A DNA stretch of 64,000 bases. Origin: Gammaproteobacteria bacterium. Its GTDB lineage: Bacteria; Pseudomonadota; Gammaproteobacteria; Nevskiales; Nevskiaceae. This document shows, piece by piece, positions 20,835 to 49,894 of the stretch (positions are counted from its first letter, which is position 1; every line of letters begins with the position of its first letter). The stretch covers positions 62,001-126,000 of the forward strand of contig JAPLSA010000014.1 in assembly GCA_026398815.1 (NCBI GenBank), read 5' to 3'. The notes beneath the pieces were generated by a model. The model ran no database searches and was not told where the DNA came from. It saw only the letters and a list, made by a program, of their open reading frames with translations. Both the position numbers and the translations under genes were made by a program.

Positions 20835-22244
20835 ATGGCGACCCTCTTGAAGCCGCTCGATGCGTCCTGGCTGTATGTCGAATCCAGGACCACGCCGATG
20901 CATGTGGCCGGCCTCAACATCTTTTCGCTGCCGGACGATGCACCGCCGGATTTCCTGGTCCGGCTGGTGGCGCAGCTGAAGGACGCCAAGAGCTTTTCTC
21001 CGCCATGGAACCTGCGGCTGAAGGCCTCGCTGCTGAAGAGCGTGGCGCCGGCCTGGGAGATCGACGACGGGCTTGATCTGGACTATCACGTGCGCCATTC
21101 GGCGCTGCCGCACCCGGGCGGCGAGCGCGAACTGGGCGTGCTGGTGTCGCGCCTGCACAGCCACGAGCTGGACTTGAACCGGCCGCTCTGGGAATGCCAT
21201 GTCATCGAAGGGCTGGAGAACCGCCGTTTTGCGCTGTACATCAAGATCCACCACGCACTGATCGACGGCGTCGGCGGCATCCGGCTGACGGCGCGGGCGT
21301 TCTCGACCAGCCCGAGCCAGCGCGGCATCACGCCGCCGTGGTCGATCGGCACCGAGATGAAGAAGCGCCGCGCGCGCCGCGACGAGACCGCCGACAACAC
21401 GCCGCCGCCGTCCACGCTCGACCGGCTGCGCGAGCAGCTGGCGCAGCAGGTCGAGCTGGTGCCGCAGGTGTTCAATGCGCTGACCAAGATCTGGAGTGGC
21501 AAGAAGCCGCATGACGCGCTGGCCACGCCGTTCAAGGCGCCGAAGTCGGTGCTCAACGACCGGGTCGACGGCCAGCGCCGCTTCGCCACCCAGCAATACG
21601 ATCTGGCGCGGCTGAAGGCGATCACCGAAAAGGCCGGCGTCACCCTCAACGACGTAGTGCTGGCGATCTGCGCCGGTGCGCTGCGCCGCTTCCTGAAGGA
21701 GCTGAACGCGCTGCCCCGGCGCAGCCTGACCGCCGGCCTGCCGGTGTCGGTGCGGCCGAAGGGCGATCTGGAGCTGGGCACGGCGATCAGCTTCATGCTG
21801 GCCGATCTCGGCACCTCGATTGCCGATCCGGTCAAGCGCCTGCACTGGATCCACGAGTCGACGCTGGGCGCCAAGGAACATCTGCAAAGCCTGCCGAAGA
21901 GCGGCCTGAACAATTACACGACGCTGTTCATGGCGCCTTACATCATGGGCATCCTCACGGGTGCGGCCGGGCGCATCAAGCCGATGTTCAATCTGGCGAT
22001 CTCCAACGTGCCGGGGCCGGACCAGACCCTGTATCTCGGCGGTGCGAAGCTGGAGGCGATGTATCCGGTCAGCGTGCTGATGCACGGCCAGGCGCTGAAC
22101 ATCACCTGCCTGTCGTACGCCGGCAAGCTGAACTTCGGCTTCACCGGCGCCCGCGACGCGCTGCCGCACATGCAGCGGCTGGCCGTCTACACCGGTGAAG
22201 CGCTGGACGAGCTGGAAACGGCCGTGCAGAAGGCCTTCCGTTAA
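20835..22244 (+). CDS. Wax ester synthase / diacylglycerol acyltransferase (WS/DGAT)
   Basis: This 469-residue enzyme condenses acyl-CoA with a fatty alcohol or diacylglycerol to make storage wax esters or triacylglycerol at the inner membrane. The catalytic HHxxxDG motif is intact: His139, His140, Asp144, Gly145 in IHHALIDGVGG. PLWE (117-120) and the late AISNVPGP motif of the family are also present. The length matches known bacterial enzymes. The ATG (MATLLKPLDASW) is the natural family start. A 6-bp stem with a long loop (20799-20825) lies just upstream; its role is unclear. It follows the glycosyltransferase by 161 bp, possibly with its own promoter. Confidence 0.93.
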   Translation: MATLLKPLDASWLYVESRTTPMHVAGLNIFSLPDDAPPDFLVRLVAQLKDAKSFSPPWNLRLKASLLKSVAPAWEIDDGLDLDYHVRHSALPHPGGERELGVLVSRLHSHELDLNRPLWECHVIEGLENRRFALYIKIHHALIDGVGGIRLTARAFSTSPSQRGITPPWSIGTEMKKRRARRDETADNTPPPSTLDRLREQLAQQVELVPQVFNALTKIWSGKKPHDALATPFKAPKSVLNDRVDGQRRFATQQYDLARLKAITEKAGVTLNDVVLAICAGALRRFLKELNALPRRSLTAGLPVSVRPKGDLELGTAISFMLADLGTSIADPVKRLHWIHESTLGAKEHLQSLPKSGLNNYTTLFMAPYIMGILTGAAGRIKPMFNLAISNVPGPDQTLYLGGAKLEAMYPVSVLMHGQALNITCLSYAGKLNFGFTGARDALPHMQRLAVYTGEALDELETAVQKAFR

Positions 22245-22712
22245 GCCAGACGTAGGCTGGCGCGACGGACGACCGTACGCGCCGGGAGCTGCGAACGGGT
22301 CTGGGTGCTTGCAGCCTCACGGTCTTCGGCCACGCGCAGGCGACGATCCCCGCTGAATCTCGCTGCCTAAAACCGGCCGGCGACAAGGATCGAAGCGGCG
22401 AAGACACCGACAGGGCGAAATCGGTTACCTCCGCCGTTTCTGGTGCGGATCAACCAGACACGGCGTGCTACATGACCAGCGGGCGACTGCGAGGCTGCCC
22501 AACGACTCGGTGCCCGTGGCCTGGACAAAGAACGGCTGACGGCACCGCGTTCGCGGCGTCGGGCGCGCTGCGGGCTACGGCCGACCTGCGCCACTGCCGC
22601 GCCGATTGCCAACCCCATACCTAAGACGAGTACCGTTCCGGCGCGACTGACTACGCTGCGGCATCACATTGCCAATAGAAACGGCACGACGCCGTCCGCG
22701 TGGAGGATTCTC
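22245..22712. other. 468-bp stretch without a convincing gene
   Basis: No supported gene is present; the short open frames lack ribosome sites and family features. A weak hairpin GCCAG/CTGGC (22245-22261) directly follows the WS/DGAT stop. Another small one, ACGGC/GCCGT (22681-22695), sits just before the ribosome site of the next gene. Base composition looks more even than in the surrounding genes. It may mark the left boundary of an acquired three-gene unit. Confidence 0.4.
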
Positions 22713-24959
22713 GTGACCCCGACCCTGAGCCCTGCCGATCCCACGTCTGTCGCCGATCCCAGCGTTCGTGTCACGCGCACCTCCTGCGGCATCTGCGAAG
22801 CCTCCTGCGGTCTGGTCGTGCGTGTCCGCGGCGACGAGGTGCTGGACATCCGCCCGGATCCGCTGCACCCGAACTCGAAGGGCTTCGCCTGCTCCAAGGG
22901 CGTGCAGTTCCATCACCTGCGCGACGACCCGGACCGCGTGCGCCAGCCACTGCGTCGACGCGCCGACGGCAGCTTCGAGCCGGTCAGCTGGGAGCAGGCG
23001 CTGGACGACATCGGCCGACGGCTCAAAGCGATCATCGCGCGCCACGGCGGCGAATCAGTGGGCTTGTACGGCGGCAATCCAATTGTCTGGAACCATGAAG
23101 CGTTCTCCCTGCTGCTTGGCCTCGGCGCAGCGCTGAAAACCCGGCACCTGTTCGCGGCCGCGTCGGTCGACATCAATAACTATTACGTCGTCAACCAGCT
23201 GCTCTACGGAAACAACTTTTGCAGCCTTTTCCCAGACGTTGAGCGCACGCGGTTCATGGTGATCCTCGGCGGCAATCCGGTGGTCTCGCACGGCAGCATG
23301 ATGACCGTCGGCCATGTCCGCGAAGCGCTGCAGGACATCGTCCGTCGAGGCGGCCGCGTAGTGGTGATCGACCCGCGCCGCAGCGAGACCGCGCAGCTGT
23401 TCGAGCACCTTCCGCTACGTCCGGATGCCGATGCTTGGCTGGTCGCGGCGATGCTGCGGCTGGCACTGCAGCGGGGCTGCCCACGGCCGGAGGTGGCGGC
23501 AACGCTCGGCGGGCTGGCCTTCCTGCAGACGCTTGTCGAGGTCGCGACGCCAACGCGTGCCGAACAGGAAACCGGCATCCCGGCAGCCCGCATCGAACAG
23601 CTGACGCGCGACTTCATCGCCGCCGACGGCGCAGTCCTGTACGGCCGCTGGGGCGCTTCCCTGGGCCAGTTCTCGACACTGACGAAGTATCTGATCGAGG
23701 CGTTCAACGCGGTCACCGGCAATCTCGACCGGGCCGGCGGCGCGCTATTCGGGCATTCGATGATCGATATCGAAAAGCTGATGCGAGACACTGGCCAGAT
23801 CGGCTACGACCGCTGGCGCACACGCGTCGAAGGCATTCCCGAGGTGTTCGGCACTGCGCCGCTGGCAACAATGGCTGCAGAAATAGAGACGCCCGGCAAC
23901 GGTCAGTTGCGCGCGCTGCTGGTCAGTCACGGCAATCCGGCGATGAGCGGCCCCGGAGGCCGGCGCCTAGAGCGGGCGCTCGGCCAGCTGGAGCTGCTGG
24001 TGTCGATGGACCCGTACCTGACGGAGACCAGCCGGCTCGCGCACTACGTGTTGCCGCCGACGCTATGGCTGGAACGTGAAGGCTTTCCGATCTTCACGAT
24101 GGCACACACCGCCGTGCCATACGCGCAGTGGAGCCCGGCTAGCGTGCGGCCGCCGGAGGGCGCGCGGGACGATGGCTGGATATTCGCCGAGATCAGCCGC
24201 CGGATCGGCGTGGTGCCGTCGCCGCTGGCGCTGGTGCGTGGCCTTGGCCGACTCGGCATCACGCTCGGCGCACGCACGCTGACCGACCTCGCGCTACGCA
24301 CCGGCGAGCACGGCGACTGGTTCGGCCTAAGGCCTTCAGGCCTGAGCCGCCGCAAGCTGCTGGCCGTCGGTGGCCCGTTGCTGCTGAAGCCGAGGCCGCC
24401 GACAGGCGTGCTGCGCCAGCGCATCGCACATCGCGACCACCGCGTACATCTGGAGCACCCTCTGTTCGCAGCAGAAATGCAGCGGCTGGCACAGCGCCAG
24501 AGCAACGATCCAGCCTATCCGCTGCACATCATCAGCGTGCGCGAGCTGCGCTCGCACAACAGCTGGCTGCACAACATTCCGAAGCTGATGGCGGGCGAGC
24601 GCGTGCAGCGCCTGCGCGTCCATCCTCAGGACGCCCGCCCACTGGGCCTGCACAACGGCGACCGGGTGCGCGTCGAATCACGACACGGCGCGGTGGAGGT
24701 CATGGCCTGGATCAGCGATGAGGTGATGCCCGGCGTGGTCGCACTTCCGCACGGCTGGGGCCATCGCGGCGGCTGGCGGCGTGCAGTGGAGGCTGGCGGA
24801 GCAGCATTCAACGATCTGACCTCCAGCGCCTACGTCGATATCGACCGGCCGTCCGGACAGGCGCAGCTGACCGGCATCGCGGTGCGCCTGTGTCCGCTTT
24901 CGTCAGCCACGCCACCGGCAACTGACACCGTCACCACATCCTGCTCCCCCTCGGCCTGA
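22713..24959 (+). CDS. Molybdopterin-dependent oxidoreductase, formate dehydrogenase/nitrate reductase-like catalytic subunit
   Basis: This is a 748-residue member of the DMSO-reductase superfamily, predicted to bind a [4Fe-4S] cluster and Mo- or W-bis-pyranopterin. Cluster ligands are Cys25, Cys28, Cys32 and Cys60 (CGICEASC then ACSKG). A C-terminal molydopterin-dinucleotide-binding domain starts near residue 600 (SVRELRSHNSWLHN, then NGDRVRVES). At the usual position of the metal-ligating Cys, SeCys or Ser the sequence reads AAASVDINNYY, so Ser151 or Asp153 is the candidate ligand. There is no signal peptide, so the enzyme is cytoplasmic. GTG start with GGAGG seven bases upstream. It forms an operon with ferredoxin and reductase. 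Substrate unknown. Confidence 0.87.
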   Translation: MTPTLSPADPTSVADPSVRVTRTSCGICEASCGLVVRVRGDEVLDIRPDPLHPNSKGFACSKGVQFHHLRDDPDRVRQPLRRRADGSFEPVSWEQALDDIGRRLKAIIARHGGESVGLYGGNPIVWNHEAFSLLLGLGAALKTRHLFAAASVDINNYYVVNQLLYGNNFCSLFPDVERTRFMVILGGNPVVSHGSMMTVGHVREALQDIVRRGGRVVVIDPRRSETAQLFEHLPLRPDADAWLVAAMLRLALQRGCPRPEVAATLGGLAFLQTLVEVATPTRAEQETGIPAARIEQLTRDFIAADGAVLYGRWGASLGQFSTLTKYLIEAFNAVTGNLDRAGGALFGHSMIDIEKLMRDTGQIGYDRWRTRVEGIPEVFGTAPLATMAAEIETPGNGQLRALLVSHGNPAMSGPGGRRLERALGQLELLVSMDPYLTETSRLAHYVLPPTLWLEREGFPIFTMAHTAVPYAQWSPASVRPPEGARDDGWIFAEISRRIGVVPSPLALVRGLGRLGITLGARTLTDLALRTGEHGDWFGLRPSGLSRRKLLAVGGPLLLKPRPPTGVLRQRIAHRDHRVHLEHPLFAAEMQRLAQRQSNDPAYPLHIISVRELRSHNSWLHNIPKLMAGERVQRLRVHPQDARPLGLHNGDRVRVESRHGAVEVMAWISDEVMPGVVALPHGWGHRGGWRRAVEAGGAAFNDLTSSAYVDIDRPSGQAQLTGIAVRLCPLSSATPPATDTVTTSCSPSA

Positions 24960-24967
24960 GACCAACC

Positions 24968-25231
24968 ATGCCCTACGTCATCGCGGCTCCATGCGTGGCC
25001 GACTACTCCTGCGTCGAAGTCTGTCCGGTCAACTGCATTGCACCAGGACCGGCCGATCCGGGTTTCGCGAAGGCCGAGCAGCTCTATATCAACCCGGCAC
25101 TGTGTATCCACTGCGAAGCCTGCGTCGAGGCCTGCCCGGTTAATGCGATTTTCGAGACGAAGGCGCTGCCAGAGCCCTGGAAGGCTTACGCGCAGATCAA
25201 CGCCGACTACTTCACCCAGGCTGCTCGATGA
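24968..25231 (+). CDS. 7Fe-type ferredoxin
   Basis: This small electron carrier of 87 residues lies 8 bp after the molybdoenzyme. Cysteines follow the Azotobacter-type ferredoxin layout. Cys9, Cys15 and Cys56 can hold a [3Fe-4S] cluster. Cys46, Cys49, Cys52 (CIHCEAC) and Cys19 can hold a [4Fe-4S] cluster. The second cysteine of the first motif, which would complete a second 4Fe cluster, is missing, as in FdxA. Its stop overlaps the reductase ATG (ATGA), which ties the two stoichiometrically. It probably shuttles electrons between the flavoprotein and the Mo enzyme. Confidence 0.9.
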   Translation: MPYVIAAPCVADYSCVEVCPVNCIAPGPADPGFAKAEQLYINPALCIHCEACVEACPVNAIFETKALPEPWKAYAQINADYFTQAAR

Positions 25232-26550
25232 CGCCGGGCAACTCGCAACGACCACTGCGCGTCGCGATCGTCGGCTCCGGTCCAGCCGGCTTCTATGCCG
25301 CCGGCCATCTGCAGAAAACGCGCGGACTGCACGCCGAGATCGATGTCTACGAACGCCTGCCGACCCCGTGGGGTTTGCTGCGCGCCGGAGTAGCACCAGA
25401 TCATCCTGACAAGAAAGGCGTGTCGCGGGTCTTCGAGTTGATCGCCGCGCATCCGGGGCTGCGCTGGTTCGGCAATGTCGAGGTCGGCCGCGATGTCAGC
25501 CTCGATGCGCTGCTCGGCACTTACGATGCGGTAATCCTCGCGCACGGAGCTGCCGCGCCACGCCCACCTGGCCTGCCTGGTGAGACGCTCGACGGCAGCG
25601 TCAGCGCCGCCGATTTCGTCAGCTGGTACAACGCCCACCCCGACGCCGCGCACCGGCAGCATGATTTCAGCCGTAGCGAGCGCGCCGTGGTGGTCGGCAA
25701 CGGCAATGTCGCGCTCGACATTGCACGCCTGCTGACGCTGGACCCGGCGCGGCTGCACGAGACTGATATCGCCGCCGGCGCGCTGGACGCACTGCGCAGC
25801 AGCCGCATCCGCGAAGTTCTGGTGCTCGGTCGTCGCGGTGCAGAGCACGCGGCCTTCCACAATCCGGAGCTGGCTGAACTCGGCCATCTGCCGGCAGTCG
25901 ATGTAGTCGTCGATACTGCCGAGCTGGCCAGAGTGCCGCCCGAGGCTGCTGCGGATTGGGCCCGCCGGCGCAAACTCGCGACGCTTCACGACTACGCGCA
26001 ACGGTTGCGCCGCCATCCGCGGGCGATCGCGCTGCGCTTCGGCTGGCAGCCACTAGCGGTTATCGACGATGGCCACGGCCACGTCGCCGGCCTGCAAGTC
26101 GCCACCCAGGCTGGCGAGCAGCGCATCAACGCCGGCCTGGTGGTCTGGGCAATCGGCTTCGAGGCGCGGCCGCTGGCCGGCGTGCCGAACGAGCGTCCCG
26201 GTGGCCGGCTGCGGCACGTTAGCCAGCGCGTCGCTGGTCTAGACCGCGTCTACGTCACCGGTTGGGCGGCTCGCGGGCCGCAGGGCGTGATCGGCAGCAA
26301 CAAGCACTGCGCGCAACTGGCCGTCGATGCACTGCTGGCGGATCTCGCTGGCGGCTGCATCGACGCCGCACCGCGTCATTCACCGAACGCGCTGCTGGAG
26401 GAAATCAGCCAGCGCGGCGTCGAGCTGGTGCGCTATCGCGGCTGGCAGCGGATCGACGAGCAGGAACGCGATTTCGGCGTGGCGAGCGGCCGGCCGCGGA
26501 TCAAGCTCGACAACCGCGAAGCGCTGCTCGAGGTTGCGCGCGGCGCTTGA
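25228..26550 (+). CDS. Ferredoxin-NADP(+) reductase, adrenodoxin-reductase/FprA type
   Basis: The 440-residue flavoprotein exchanges electrons between NADP(H) and ferredoxin. The FAD-binding GSGPAGFYAA lies at residues 16-25, followed by PTPWGLLRAGVAPDHP. The NADP-binding GNGNVALDIARLL is near 155. Near the C-terminus TGWAARGPQGVIGSNK matches the family's last FAD contact. This is the glutathione-reductase-fold class found in mycobacteria (FprA) and mitochondria, not the plant-type FNR. It closes the operon, giving a complete chain from NADPH through FAD and Fe-S to the Mo enzyme, or the reverse direction. Confidence 0.92.
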   Translation: MTPGNSQRPLRVAIVGSGPAGFYAAGHLQKTRGLHAEIDVYERLPTPWGLLRAGVAPDHPDKKGVSRVFELIAAHPGLRWFGNVEVGRDVSLDALLGTYDAVILAHGAAAPRPPGLPGETLDGSVSAADFVSWYNAHPDAAHRQHDFSRSERAVVVGNGNVALDIARLLTLDPARLHETDIAAGALDALRSSRIREVLVLGRRGAEHAAFHNPELAELGHLPAVDVVVDTAELARVPPEAAADWARRRKLATLHDYAQRLRRHPRAIALRFGWQPLAVIDDGHGHVAGLQVATQAGEQRINAGLVVWAIGFEARPLAGVPNERPGGRLRHVSQRVAGLDRVYVTGWAARGPQGVIGSNKHCAQLAVDALLADLAGGCIDAAPRHSPNALLEEISQRGVELVRYRGWQRIDEQERDFGVASGRPRIKLDNREALLEVARGA

Positions 26551-26580
26551 TCTCCCTCCGCCACGACACCGCTGACGGGT

Positions 26581-27090
26581 TCAGGCGATCGAAGTCGGAC
26601 CGCCGCGCCGCAGCCGCACCACCGCCCGGCGCAGCACCGGCAGCAGGCCGAAATGGATCGCCGTCGCGGCCAGCGGCGCGAACAGCAGCCAGGCCGCGAT
26701 GCCGCCGAGCGCAACGCCGGCGAACTCGCGGATGAACGGCAGCGGTGCGGCCTCGAAGCGCGCCATCAGCTCCGGAATCGACAGGCTCACATGCGGCGCG
26801 CCGAACCATTCGCCGGCCCGCCAGAACGGAATCAGCAGCGCGAACTGCAGCGGGTAGCAGAGGTAGTTGACCAGCTGGATGATCGGCTGGTTGAGGCGCA
26901 GCGCCCAGGCGGCGAGGCCACACAGCAGGGTGGTCGAGCCGAGGATCGGGAACACCGCGATCACGGCGCCGAGCGCAGCGGTCAGCGCAATCCGCTCCGG
27001 CGTGGTGCCCTGGCGCAACTGGTTGAGGATCGGCGCGACGATGCGCCGCCGCCACCAGCTGACCGCCACCACCACCGGCACGGCGCTCAT
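26581..27090 (-). CDS. DUF2062 family membrane protein
   Basis: The 169-residue protein has an N-terminal basic segment (WWRRRIVAPILNQLRQGTTPERIA) and about four hydrophobic helices. It shows the AVFPILGSTTLLCGLAAWALRLNQPIIQLVNY region that defines DUF2062. Function is not established. The start codon overlaps the stop of the upstream DUF1475 gene by one base (TGATG), and the gene ends the lipid-modification operon. Members often sit near glycosyltransferase or fatty-acid genes, so a membrane-linked role is likely. I cannot say more. Confidence 0.75.
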   Translation of the reverse strand: MSAVPVVVAVSWWRRRIVAPILNQLRQGTTPERIALTAALGAVIAVFPILGSTTLLCGLAAWALRLNQPIIQLVNYLCYPLQFALLIPFWRAGEWFGAPHVSLSIPELMARFEAAPLPFIREFAGVALGGIAAWLLFAPLAATAIHFGLLPVLRRAVVRLRRGGPTSIA

Positions 27091-27460: not shown

Positions 27461-28750
27461 TCAGGCCGGCTTGTTCAGGGTGAGGTGCATCAGGTCGATC
27501 GAGCCGGTGCGGAAGCCGCATTCGCAGTAGCTCAGGTAGTAGCGCCACATGCGCAGGAAGCGCTCGTCGAACTGCTGGACGATCTGCTCGCGCACGCCGA
27601 GCACGTTGCGGTGCCAGGCGGCCAGCGTGTCGGCGTAGTCCTTGGCATAGAAGCTCGGGTTCACCGGCAGCAGGCCGGCGCTGCGGGCCAGATCCTGGAA
27701 CAGCCCCGGCGGGCACAGCATGCCGCCCGGGAAGATGTACTTCTGGATGAAGTCGCGCTTGGTCCGGTAGTTGTCGAAGATCGCCGGATTGATGGTGATG
27801 CCCTGGATCGCGGCGATGCCGCCAGGCTTCAGCGCCTTCGAGATCGCGGCGAAGTAGCCGGGCCAGTACTCCTCGCCGACCGCCTCGTACATCTCGATCG
27901 ACACCACGCGGTCATAGGTCTCGGTGACGTCGCGGTAGTCGCGGATCTCGAACGTCACCCGGTCGGCGACGCCGGCCTTCTCGGCGCGCAGGCACGCTTC
28001 CGCGTACTGCTCGCTGGACAGCGTGATCGAATGCACGCGGCAGCCGGCATGCTTGGCCGCGTAGATCGCGAAGCCGCCCCAGCCGGAGCCGATCTCCAGC
28101 AGCGTGTGCTCAGGGCGCAGATCCAGCCGCTCGAACATCAGCCGGAACTTGTTGATCTGGGCGTCCATCAAGGTCTCGTTCGGCTTGATGTACATCCCGC
28201 TTGAGTACGCCATCGTGTCGTCGAGCCACATCTTGTAGAACTCGTTGCCGAGGTCGTAGTGGTACTCGATGTTCTTCCTGGCGGTGCGCTTGGTGTTGGC
28301 TTTCAGCTTGTGCTTGACCATGCCCCAGAAGCGGCCCAGCCAGTTGATCTCGAACGGGCCCTTGTAGTGCGGCTCGTTGAGATACATGACCATCAGCAGG
28401 CGGGTCAGGTCCGGGCTTTCCCAGCAGTCGTCGAGATAGGCGTCGCCGATGCCGACCTCGCCGCCGGCCAGCAGGTGGCGCATCAGCCGTTCGCTCTTGA
28501 TCTGCCACAGGCCGTGCGGGCCGGGCTCGCTGCCTTCGAAGCGGCGGGTGCTGCCGTTCGGCAGCACGATGTCGAGCGTGCCGATGCGCACGCCGGACAT
28601 CATGTACATCAGCACCCGCAGGCCAAGGCTCAGGCCACGGTTGTCGCCGTGGGTGGCGAAGGTGTCGGGCAGGTCGGGCGAAAAACCATCGCGATGGATG
28701 ATCTTGTCGAGCGGCTCGCGGCGATCATCGTCGGTGTCGTCGTGCTTCAT
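27461..28750 (-). CDS. cfa: Cyclopropane-fatty-acyl-phospholipid synthase family methyltransferase
   Basis: This SAM-dependent enzyme methylenates the double bond of unsaturated phospholipid acyl chains, or adds a methyl group in related enzymes. The 429-residue length is slightly above E. coli Cfa. The SAM-binding loop LLEIGSGWGGFAIYAA lies near residue 220. SITLSSEQYAEA, the acidic VSIEMYEAVGEEYW and the NIEYHYDLGNEFYKMWLDDTMAYSSGMY segment near 170-200 are all family features. The ATG start (MKHDDTDDDRRE) follows the DUF1365 stop by 36 bp. Because it is grouped with a FAD oxidoreductase and DUF1365 protein, a modified (methylated or furan-type) fatty acid is an alternative product. Confidence 0.9.
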   Translation of the reverse strand: MKHDDTDDDRREPLDKIIHRDGFSPDLPDTFATHGDNRGLSLGLRVLMYMMSGVRIGTLDIVLPNGSTRRFEGSEPGPHGLWQIKSERLMRHLLAGGEVGIGDAYLDDCWESPDLTRLLMVMYLNEPHYKGPFEINWLGRFWGMVKHKLKANTKRTARKNIEYHYDLGNEFYKMWLDDTMAYSSGMYIKPNETLMDAQINKFRLMFERLDLRPEHTLLEIGSGWGGFAIYAAKHAGCRVHSITLSSEQYAEACLRAEKAGVADRVTFEIRDYRDVTETYDRVVSIEMYEAVGEEYWPGYFAAISKALKPGGIAAIQGITINPAIFDNYRTKRDFIQKYIFPGGMLCPPGLFQDLARSAGLLPVNPSFYAKDYADTLAAWHRNVLGVREQIVQQFDERFLRMWRYYLSYCECGFRTGSIDLMHLTLNKPA

Positions 28751-28786
28751 GGCGTCAAAAGGTCGGATTCGCAGGATGTTCGACGT

Positions 28787-29593
28787 TCAGCTGACATCGT
28801 GTTCCGGTGCCGCCGGCTTGCCGTGGAAGCGGCCGCCGCGCAACCAGATCTTCAAGGCTTCCCAGTGAATGCCGGCGACGACCTTCAGGGTCATCAGCGG
28901 CATCCGCAACACCTGCGCCAGCACCGCGCCATCGCGCAGCGGCCGGCGTTCCCCGGCCAGGGTCGCGTCGAGGATCGGCACCCCGTCGCGCGTTTCGTGG
29001 ATCACCACCCGCAGCCGCTCGCCAGGGTCTTCCAGCGTGAAGCGGTAACGGCCGACGAGGTCGAAGAACGGTGACACGTGGAAGCACTTGTCCTTCTCAT
29101 GTGGCTGCTGATACGGCATCGGCTCGCCACCGGATGCGAGCAGGTAGCAGTGCTTCTCGCCGAAGGTGTTGCGGACCTCGGCGATCACCGCGCGCAGACG
29201 ACCGTCGCGGTGCTCGCAGTACCACAGCGAAATCGGGTTGAAGGCGAAGCCGAGCAGCCTCGGGAAGGCCAGCAGCCGGATGCGGCCGCCGTCCAGCGCG
29301 ATGCCGGCCTGCGCCAGCAGATCTTCGGCCCAGCGGCGCAAGCCGCCCGGCGCGCCGTTGCCGTGGTCGCGGTCATGGAAAGCCAGCAGATTGAAGCGGT
29401 TGCGCGACACTAGCCGCAGGCCGGCCACCGCTTCGTCGATGCGGTCGATGTCCCAGACGATGTAGAAGACCTTGTAGACGAAGCGGTACAGCGGCGCGAC
29501 CAGGCGCCGGTGCATGACACGGCTCGGGTACAGCGCGGCAGCCGGATCGCCGGTGGTGACCGGGCCTGCGTTTGCTGGCGCGGTGCCGGTCAT
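28787..29593 (-). CDS. DUF1365 family protein
   Basis: The 268-residue protein starts with PSRVMHRRLVAPLYRFVYKVFYI, the defining DUF1365 head. It contains FAFNPISLWYCE and EVRNTFGEKHCYLL in the middle and a VSPFFDLVGRYRFTLE segment. The biochemical role is unproven. Members are almost always encoded beside a FAD-dependent amine-oxidase-like protein and a cyclopropane synthase, as here, and are thought to take part in fatty-acid modification. The ATG start lies 4 bp after the stop of the FAD gene, so the genes are tightly coupled. Confidence 0.85.
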   Translation of the reverse strand: MTGTAPANAGPVTTGDPAAALYPSRVMHRRLVAPLYRFVYKVFYIVWDIDRIDEAVAGLRLVSRNRFNLLAFHDRDHGNGAPGGLRRWAEDLLAQAGIALDGGRIRLLAFPRLLGFAFNPISLWYCEHRDGRLRAVIAEVRNTFGEKHCYLLASGGEPMPYQQPHEKDKCFHVSPFFDLVGRYRFTLEDPGERLRVVIHETRDGVPILDATLAGERRPLRDGAVLAQVLRMPLMTLKVVAGIHWEALKIWLRGGRFHGKPAAPEHDVS

Positions 29594-29597
29594 GCGG

Positions 29598-30878
29598 CTA
29601 GAGCCCGACCGCCCAGGCCGGGAGACAGCTCGGATCGATGCCCTGCGCCGCCCGCAGTCCGGACTTCAGGCCATCCTCGTGGAAGCCGTAGCCGGTCCAG
29701 GCGCCGGCCCACCACAGGCCGCCGTTACCCTGGATCGCCGGCAGCTTCGCGTGCGTGATCTGGCTGGTCGCGGTGTACAGCGGGTGGTGGTAGACGGTGT
29801 CGTAGATGACCTTGTCGGCCGGCACCGGGCGCTGCGGGTTCAAGGTGACGATGTAGTTGGTCGGCCCCGGAAGGTGCTGCAGCAGGTTCATCCAGTAGCT
29901 GCCGGAGATCCGCTGGTCGTGCACCGCCGACACCGGATGCGTGTAGTTCCAGCTGGCCCAGGCGGCGCGGCGCTTCGGCAGGAAGCTGTCATCGGTGTGC
30001 AGGATCACCCGCGATTCGCTGTACGGAATGCCGGCCAGCACTTCGCGCTCGGACGCGCTGGCATCCTCCAGCAGCCGCAGCGCGGTATCGGAATGGGTGG
30101 CGCAGACCACGCGGTCGAAGTGCTGCTCGCCGTCGGCCAGCCGGACGATCACGCCGCCTTCGGCAGCCCGGCGGATACCGAGCGTCGGCGTTTCCAGCCG
30201 CAGCGCACCGCGATAGCGGGCCAGCAGCTGGCGGACATAGACATGGCTGCCGCCGGTCACCGAATGCCAGGTCGGCTGCTGGGTCGCGGTGAACAGGCTG
30301 TGGCTGTCGAAGAAGCGCATGAAGTCATCGGCCGGGTACTGCGCCGCCGCCTGCGGCGAGCAGCTCCAGATCATGCCGGCCATCGGCAGCAGGTAGTCCT
30401 GCTTCAGGCCTTCCGAATAGCCTTCGCGGTCGAGGAATTCGCCGAGCGAACCCTTGGGCAGCCGGCCCGACTTCAGCAGCGCGTTGCAGCGCTTGTTGAG
30501 CTTCAGGATGTCCAGCAGCATCCGGATGTGGCCGGGCTTGAACAGGTTGGTCCACTGCGCGAAGACGCTCCAGATCTGGTCGCTGCCCTTCCATTCGTAG
30601 CGGCCTTCGCCGATCGACACCGCGAACGACATGCTGGTCGGCCGCGTCGCCACGTCCAGTTCCCTGAACAGCGCGGTCAGGTTCGGATAGTTGATGCCGT
30701 TGTAGACGATCCAGCCGGTGTCGACGGCGATCGGCCCGGCCGGCGTCGAGATCGGGATGGTGTTGGTGTGGCCGCCGACGCGGCTGTCCTGCTCGATCAG
30801 CGTGACCGTGTGCTGGCGAGCCAGGAAATAGGCGGCGGACAGGCCGGAGATGCCGGAACCGATGACGGCGATGTTCAT
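29598..30878 (-). CDS. NAD(P)/FAD-dependent amine-oxidase-like flavoprotein of a lipid-modification cluster
   Basis: This 426-residue flavoprotein begins MNIAVIGSGISGLSAAYFLA (dinucleotide fold). It continues with the second FAD contact DSRVGGHTNT and closes with WWAGAWTGYGFHEDGLKSG, which binds the flavin in amine-oxidase/desaturase enzymes. Conserved synteny with DUF1365 and CFA synthase suggests it oxidises or desaturates an acyl chain rather than an amine. The Rhodobacter genes that make furan or methylated fatty acids under singlet-oxygen stress contain comparable enzymes, from memory. It follows tesA by 45 bp with no evident terminator. Confidence 0.82.
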   Translation of the reverse strand: MNIAVIGSGISGLSAAYFLARQHTVTLIEQDSRVGGHTNTIPISTPAGPIAVDTGWIVYNGINYPNLTALFRELDVATRPTSMSFAVSIGEGRYEWKGSDQIWSVFAQWTNLFKPGHIRMLLDILKLNKRCNALLKSGRLPKGSLGEFLDREGYSEGLKQDYLLPMAGMIWSCSPQAAAQYPADDFMRFFDSHSLFTATQQPTWHSVTGGSHVYVRQLLARYRGALRLETPTLGIRRAAEGGVIVRLADGEQHFDRVVCATHSDTALRLLEDASASEREVLAGIPYSESRVILHTDDSFLPKRRAAWASWNYTHPVSAVHDQRISGSYWMNLLQHLPGPTNYIVTLNPQRPVPADKVIYDTVYHHPLYTATSQITHAKLPAIQGNGGLWWAGAWTGYGFHEDGLKSGLRAAQGIDPSCLPAWAVGL

Positions 30879-48801: not shown

Positions 48802-49894
48802 GGTTTCAAGAACCAAGTGCAATGCTGGTTGACTGAGCGGTTCGATCGAAACATTTCGTGAAGAACACCTCGGCCGGTGTTTTGAAGCCGAGGGACTTCC
48901 GGGGCCGGGTATTGAGACTCCAGGCGATCCGGTCGAGGTCGCGCTGAGAGTACTGCGACAGCTCAGTACCTCTGGGCAGGTACTGCCGCAGCAGACCGTT
49001 GGTGTTCTCGTTGATGCCACGCTGCCACGGACTGTGCGGATCAGCGAAGTAGATGGCCAAGCCGGTGCTCTCGGCAAGCCGACGGTGCAGCGCCATTTCC
49101 TTGCCTTGGTCGTAGGTCAGTGTCTTCTTCAATGAGGCGTCCAGTGGCGCGAACGCTGTGCTGAAGCCGGTCAGGGCAGCCGCCGCGCTGCACCCGTCCA
49201 TCTTCGCTAGCATCACGAATAGCGAGTACCGATCGACCAGCGTCCCGACGGCGGAATGGTTGCCAGCGCCCTTGATGAAATCGCCCTCCCAGTGTCCCGG
49301 CAGCAGCCGATCGTTCGCTGCCGGCGGCCGGACGTGGATGCTAGGCAAGTCGTGCATCCGTCCACGACGTTCCTCGCCGCGACTACGGGGCCGTTGTTGC
49401 GCGCGGCCTTGACGCAGCAACACGGTCAGCTCGCGCCGCAAGGCACCGCGAGGGATGGCGTAGATCGCGCTGTAGATCGTTTCGTGGGACACGCAGCCAA
49501 GTGTGGCGGCGATCTGTTCCGGTGACCATCGCCAGCGAAGGCATTTCACCACCTGCTGCCACAGCGGGCTCGATCGGCACAGCTTGCGCAGACGCCGGGG
49601 CTTTCGGCGCATGCGTCGAGCGCGGTGACCCGCTCGAGTTGCGTCATAGCCAACATCTCCTGCTTTCCGTGCCCGGCCCAAAGCAGAACGGCCTGATGCA
49701 CTCCGATCACCGTTCCGACGAAGCTCGCGTGAAATCGTGCTCGCCGAACGGCTCAATTGCTCAGCTACCGCCCGGACACTCGCTCCTGTGCTTCGCATCA
49801 ACATAATCACCGCGCGCTCTTCTGCGCTCAGTTGCTCGTAGTGCTTCCCCATGCAACACCTCCTTTGAAAGTGTTGCACTTGATGTTTGAAACC
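48802..49894. mobile_element. IS30-family insertion sequence, about 1.09 kb
   Basis: The element is bounded by imperfect 24-bp inverted repeats. The left runs 48802-48825 and begins GGTTTCAAG; the right runs 49871-49894. They match at 19 of 24 positions, including GGTTTCAA and CAAGTGCAA blocks. A 2-bp GC flanks each side (48800-48801 and 49895-49896), a plausible target duplication of IS30-type length. One transposase gene fills it. The rejoined target is nearly palindromic (AAAGGGCGCGTCCTTT, 14 of 16) and resembles a terminator stem at the end of the cyo/SURF1 operon. IS30 elements are known to favour palindromic targets. Confidence 0.88.
48806..49852 (-). CDS. IS30-family transposase
   Basis: This DDE transposase has 348 residues. 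N-terminal helix-turn-helix domains (MGKHYEQLSAEERAVIMLM...SVRAVAEQLSRSASTISREL) recognise the inverted repeats. The catalytic triad is visible as HWEGDFIKG (first Asp), LTYDQGKEM (second Asp) and PWQRGINENTNGLLRQYLP (Glu), in the IS30 layout. The reading frame is intact, so the element may still be mobile. The stop codon lies inside the left inverted repeat. An upstream in-frame ATG at 49879 would fall in the right repeat, so I chose the ATG at 49852. Confidence 0.93.
   Translation of the reverse strand: MGKHYEQLSAEERAVIMLMRSTGASVRAVAEQLSRSASTISRELRRNGDRSASGRSALGRARKAGDVGYDATRAGHRARRMRRKPRRLRKLCRSSPLWQQVVKCLRWRWSPEQIAATLGCVSHETIYSAIYAIPRGALRRELTVLLRQGRAQQRPRSRGEERRGRMHDLPSIHVRPPAANDRLLPGHWEGDFIKGAGNHSAVGTLVDRYSLFVMLAKMDGCSAAAALTGFSTAFAPLDASLKKTLTYDQGKEMALHRRLAESTGLAIYFADPHSPWQRGINENTNGLLRQYLPRGTELSQYSQRDLDRIAWSLNTRPRKSLGFKTPAEVFFTKCFDRTAQSTSIALGS

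Follow-up and report, generated by a model that had tools for sequence, protein, structure and literature searches.

An operon for a molybdoenzyme, a ferredoxin and an FprA-type reductase in a Nevskiaceae bacterium: a probable NADPH-dependent molybdenum reductase with a predicted aspartate ligand

Which way do electrons flow, and at which substrate, when a molybdoenzyme shares an operon with a ferredoxin and an NADPH-ferredoxin reductase? This question is raised by three genes in the window, i.e., the 64,000-nucleotide stretch of a Nevskiaceae bacterium (Gammaproteobacteria; assembly GCA_026398815.1, contig JAPLSA010000014.1, positions 62,001 to 126,000) that was analyzed here. The genes for a molybdenum (Mo) enzyme, a 7Fe-type ferredoxin and an FprA-type reductase (Table 1) form one tight operon on the + strand: the ferredoxin gene starts 9 bases past the stop codon of the Mo enzyme gene, and its own stop codon overlaps the start of the reductase gene as ATGA. 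The original prediction, made from the DNA letters alone, had described such an operon, and both coordinates and domain matches agreed with it. Judged by comparison with relatives, the operon probably encodes a cytoplasmic NADPH-dependent molybdenum reductase, with a substrate that is most likely organic and hydrophobic. A twin-arginine start was not seen in the Mo protein, and, as predicted, neither a membrane subunit gene nor a pterin-insertion chaperone gene is present in the operon. The lack of the chaperone gene is, however, not odd, since some comparable loci carry moaA or glp instead.

The Mo protein belongs to the dimethyl sulfoxide (DMSO) reductase superfamily. It carries the domains Molybdop_Fe4S4 (PF04879), Molybdopterin (PF00384) and Molydop_binding (PF01568), all above the curated cut-offs, and its relatives in the PDB are FdhF and the periplasmic nitrate reductase Nap. 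The region of the metal ligand reads AAASVDINNYY, for which either Ser151 or Asp153 had been proposed in place of Cys or selenocysteine (Sec). The window enzyme and 43 relatives, encoded in the same genome, in related genomes or on named plasmids, were aligned with E. coli FdhF, NapA, NarG, DmsA and BisC. Asp153 aligned with Sec140 of FdhF and with the ligand Cys of NapA, and Asp filled this column in all 44 family members. Ser151 was therefore rejected, while the absence of Cys and Sec stood, and Asp153 is the predicted metal ligand. Likewise invariant (44/44) were Lys62, the relay lysine that corresponds to Lys44 of FdhF, and the four cysteines of the Fe-S cluster. Sec/Cys140, His141 and Arg333 of FdhF correspond to Asp153, Ile154 and His348 in the window enzyme; the absence of the His and Arg residues argues that it is not a formate dehydrogenase (FDH). 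At the position where NarG has His, Cys25 is found. An AlphaFold model could be built with only 8 distant sequences and was not used for active-site geometry because residues 138–156 had a pLDDT below 50. A Foldseek search with this weak model placed acetylene hydratase on top, with FDH and Nap scoring equally, and thus confirmed the superfamily only.

No curated NCBIfam functional model was reached by the Mo protein. The best one, FDH alpha subunit (TIGR01591), scored 217 bits where 666 are required, the type II model TIGR03479 gave 66 bits against 985, and the scores were far under every cut-off for nitrate, DMSO, trimethylamine N-oxide (TMAO) and arsenate reductases. In phylogenetic trees, the Asp-ligated proteins formed one clade (n = 44), with a support of 1.0 in one tree and of only 83 for the same set in the other. 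This clade grouped with FDH, Nap and the assimilatory nitrate reductases Nas, apart from NarG, the sole type II reference in the trees, as a search with TIGR03479 found no further ones in 150 genomes. By these trees, the Asp family appears to be a monophyletic, functionally uncharacterised sister of FDH/Nap. Members turned up in Deinococcus, Streptomyces and Mycobacterium as well as in Pseudomonadota, sphingomonads among them. A literature search, the coverage of which left out most subscription journals, returned neither a characterised family member nor an account of the three-gene arrangement. The earlier statement that no substrate could be recognised was borne out, and the phylogeny placed the enzyme outside the well-characterised clades represented. 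The host genome additionally holds three paralogues, an FDH accompanied by an FdhD-like gene elsewhere in the genome, a Nas-type enzyme and one more distant open reading frame (ORF) with a Molybdopterin domain (49 bits). In a genome-contig scan, most hits of the Mo protein were distant relatives. A second Asp-family paralogue (L013 6510-8957, L089, L103) occurs widely both within the order and in further families of the class, is often located near pyrC or rsmE homologues and looks like an old resident gene.

The two partner proteins were assigned readily. The ferredoxin matches Fer4 (Pfam) and 7Fe ferredoxins (1bc6, E = 4e-18, residues 3–83) with two cysteine motifs. The reductase matches Mycobacterium tuberculosis FprA (1lqt, E = 2e-90, residues 8–437), including the FAD and NADP Rossmann motifs, and adrenodoxin reductase (E = 3e-74). 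The same trio of adjacent genes was found in a sister lineage with 52–54% identity of the Mo enzyme (L078, L079, L081 and L082), in more distant members of the Asp family (L084 and L091) and, with a Cys-ligated Mo clade, on Allorhizobium ampelinum pAtS4e, on Thioclava p4 and in two further genomes. On pAtS4e, the trio is followed by moaA (L160 3461-8339), on Thioclava p4 by glp (L161 3544-8597), each with an AraC regulator. Ferredoxins adjoining FprA in relatives were 53–67% identical to the window ferredoxin. Since FprA-type genes occurred in only 14 of the 299 genomes of the phylum sample, their repeated adjacency is not expected by chance, and the trio is best taken as a predicted functional unit. 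Its recurrence with other Mo enzymes supports the complete cytoplasmic electron chain that had been predicted, from NADPH via ferredoxin to Mo, and shows that the module is not peculiar to its host genome. In the Mo tree, the window enzyme branches at the base of its subclade. Most simply, the trio would be ancestral in this subclade, and a sister group of nine sequences would have lost ferredoxin and FprA from its locus.

Several of these loci show further features. L084 (G035:C82:35500-55000) combines five Mo genes of the Asp family or related families with moaA, an FNR-type reductase, a ferredoxin and FprA. In L082 (7190-12742), genes for a COX3-like protein and for a membrane protein that could not be identified lie upstream of the trio, an ORF resembling a transposase fragment lies downstream, and the fraction of G and C at third codon positions (GC3) of the three genes (0.53–0.58) is under that of the flanks. 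The ferredoxin–FprA pair is combined differently in four relatives, of which three are congeners and one belongs to another genus of the family: there, it occurs with a flavoprotein resembling CrtI and carotenoid isomerases that is fused to FprA. These fusions of about 1100 amino acids, with the same ferredoxin just upstream (L092 8056-11433, L093, L094 and L095), are likely NADPH-driven CrtI-like enzymes.

For the window operon, the following course of electrons is proposed. NADPH would reduce the FAD of the FprA-type protein, from which the 7Fe-type ferredoxin would carry single electrons to the Mo enzyme and its [4Fe-4S] cluster. They would then pass Lys62 to the bis-pterin molybdenum centre ligated by Asp153, where the substrate would be reduced, e.g., by removal of oxygen or by hydrogenation. 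The original prediction had left open whether the chain reduces a substrate or feeds an oxidation into NADPH. FprA homologues adjoin P450s on a Mycobacterium avium plasmid, acyl-CoA desaturases in Tsukamurella and a diiron oxygenase in Streptomyces, and the FprA-like Fpr2 of Corynebacterium glutamicum was proposed, together with CysX, to supply sulfite reductase (PMC1266029). Because these homologues, like the FprA domains fused to the CrtI-like flavoprotein, go with electron consumers, the reductive direction is favoured, and by this analogy it appears quite likely.

The clues to the substrate come from neighbouring genes. In the nearest sister clade, which lacks ferredoxin and FprA at its locus, a short-chain dehydrogenase/reductase gene lies beside the Mo gene in 8 loci; its best match is 2,4-dienoyl-CoA reductase (1w6u, E = 8e-59), and its best model, PRK07677, stayed under its cut-off. 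Acyl-CoA dehydrogenases, MaoC, a protein of the nitronate monooxygenase family and an AlkB-like desaturase are encoded nearby in several of the sister-clade loci, and the trio locus L081 contains an acyl-CoA ligase gene and an AlkB-like gene. A lipid-like substrate, i.e., a lipid or isoprenoid catabolite and perhaps a CoA-linked breakdown intermediate, can be suggested tentatively; confidence is low because the window trio was inserted without such neighbours. A broader proposal would be a family of cytoplasmic Mo-bis-pterin reductases that are Asp-ligated and oxygen-tolerant, are fed by NADPH via adrenodoxin-reductase-type proteins and ferredoxin, and act in aerobic lipid or isoprenoid breakdown; it is conceivable, yet rather doubtful. 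To our knowledge, no such role is known for the DMSO reductase superfamily. Four points weigh against an NADPH-driven reduction of a hydrophobic substrate: the ligand was assigned by alignment alone, with a poor structure model in that loop; ferredoxin-NADP reductases are able to run in reverse; the only catabolic neighbour of the window trio, the wax ester synthase/diacylglycerol acyltransferase (WS/DGAT) gene, is part of the old flank; and the sister clade with lipid neighbours has no ferredoxin and FprA at its locus.

Alternatively, the same electron chain could act in assimilation or detoxification, the substrate being a small oxidised compound, i.e., nitrate, chlorate, a metalloid oxyanion, an S-oxide or an N-oxide. 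An Asp ligand is also present in type II oxyanion reductases (review PMC6650914), and the window enzyme groups with Nap/Nas and FDH. This explanation is nevertheless unlikely, as a separate Nas-type enzyme is encoded by the host, genes for a transporter, a nitrite reductase or a chlorite dismutase were not recognised in the neighbourhoods inspected, and none of the cut-offs for nitrate, DMSO, TMAO and arsenate reductases was approached. Formate dehydrogenase or CO2 reductase activity is suggested by FDH alpha subunits being the best named matches. It is the least probable of the functions considered, given the replaced residues at the three FdhF positions, the score far below the FDH cut-off and the separate FDH of the host.

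An oxidative enzyme would hydroxylate a hydrocarbon or lipid with water, or dehydrogenate it, and pass electrons from Mo via ferredoxin and FprA to NADP+. The hydrocarbon-type neighbours of relatives fit such a function, and the Asp-ligated ethylbenzene and steroid-side-chain dehydrogenases are hydroxylases. These dehydrogenases, however, use high-potential acceptors, and electrons would have to move uphill to reach NADP+ by way of a low-potential ferredoxin. With FprA relatives adjoining electron consumers and no NarH-type beta subunit present, an oxidative function is improbable. A non-redox hydratase similar to acetylene hydratase, held in the reduced state by NADPH, FprA and ferredoxin, might explain the top Foldseek match, since acetylene hydratase requires a reduced metal centre. 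Its ligand is Cys, though, the fold match was non-specific, with FDH and Nap scoring the same, and the sequence similarity to acetylene hydratase did not exceed that to FDH; a hydratase is thus very improbable. An NADPH-driven reductase remains the preferred reading.

How did the operon reach this genome? In four congeners (L153–L156), both flanks were collinear with the window, with about 81–89% DNA identity next to the site. Collinearity stopped at 22216–22239 and resumed at 26612–26674, and the segment in between was absent. The equivalent site measures 171 bp in G010 and contains 1.2–3 kb of different sequence in G014, G016 and G007. Between the WS/DGAT and DUF2062 genes there is thus a variable site, which holds other genes in the latter three congeners and the Mo trio in the window. 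No Mo protein closer than 57% was found in the genomes of the order that were examined. GC3 was lowest for the Mo enzyme (0.81) and FprA (0.78) genes among the genes compared, those for the ferredoxin and the DUF2062 protein being left aside (flanks 0.82–0.94, mostly about 0.90), and so was codon adaptation to the flanks (0.54 and 0.52, as compared to 0.59–0.81 for the other genes). Overall GC content of the operon did not differ from the flanks. Both the less GC-biased codon use and the acquisition suggested in the original prediction thus gained support, the near-empty site being the stronger line of evidence. These comparisons are best explained by a recent gain at a variable site, loss from all congeners being less likely. 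As to an insertion scar, no tRNA, inverted repeats or mobile element was found at the site. Elsewhere in the window, an ORF resembling an IS30-family transposase (48806-49879, - strand) was recognised by eye.

Table 1. Coordinates of the operon and associated features in the window.
Feature	Position	Strand	Description and basis
Mo enzyme gene	22713..24959	+	GTG start, TGA stop, 748 aa; Pfam domains, PDB relatives FdhF/Nap, tree
Putative ribosome-binding site GGAGGA	22702..22707	+	By inspection of the letters
7Fe-type ferredoxin gene	24968..25231	+	87 aa; Fer4, 1bc6 match, partners in relatives
FprA/adrenodoxin-reductase-type NADPH-ferredoxin reductase gene	25228..26550	+	440 aa; 1lqt match
Gene-free leader 5' of the operon	22245..22712		468 bp
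Predicted metal-ligand codon, Asp153	23169..23171	+	Asp in 44/44 family members; Sec140 column of FdhF
Segment missing from congeners (approximate insertion limits)	22240..26611		Collinear flanks in L153–L156

The gene-free leader has exactly the predicted length. It matched neither a sigma-70-like promoter nor any Rfam family, so that no molybdenum cofactor (Moco) riboswitch or other RNA was found, and internal repeats were not seen in it. Downstream of the operon, genes for a cyclopropane-fatty-acid-synthase-like protein, a DUF1365 protein and an FAD oxidoreductase stand in a row (27461-30878); this cluster is conserved in congeners and resembles a fatty-acid-modifying type.

Since the trio has its own electron supply, it is testable as a complete NADPH-driven enzyme, and the substrate of an uncharacterised Mo family present in Pseudomonadota, Deinococcus and actinobacteria is therefore directly testable. 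If the substrate were indeed a lipid or isoprenoid, molybdenum chemistry would enter aerobic lipid catabolism at an unexpected place. In addition, an Asp ligand on an FDH-like backbone would blur the usual type I/II/III classification.

In comparison with known systems, the window enzyme shares the domain layout, the N-terminal [4Fe-4S] cysteines and the relay lysine with FDH and Nap/Nas (type I), its sister group in the trees. It differs in the predicted Asp ligand, where these enzymes have Sec or Cys (Cys in assimilatory and periplasmic nitrate reductases), in the missing catalytic His and Arg of FDH, and in its partners, which are a ferredoxin and FprA of its own rather than proteins of membrane, haem or NADH type. 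In the type II family (NarG, PcrA and ethylbenzene dehydrogenase), Asp is the protein ligand of Mo; the window enzyme has Asp in the ligand column, where it may play the same part. In contrast to type II enzymes, which have a NarH-type Fe-S beta subunit, only a small ferredoxin and FprA follow the Mo gene, and the enzyme neither groups with NarG nor has its His. The operons of pAtS4e and Thioclava p4 have the same gene order and the same kinds of partners, but their Mo enzymes, in which Cys fills the ligand column, belong to a different clade, and a Moco-synthesis gene and an AraC regulator accompany them. They are annotated only as molybdopterin-dependent oxidoreductase operons. For fpr2-cysIXHDNYZ of C. 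glutamicum, it was likewise proposed that an FprA-like reductase and a small ferredoxin supply a single Fe-S reductase (PMC1266029), the terminal enzyme there being sulfite reductase and here a Mo enzyme. Finally, the window reductase resembles M. tuberculosis FprA and mammalian adrenodoxin reductase over its full length and, unlike these, is encoded next to a Mo enzyme and a single ferredoxin dedicated to it.

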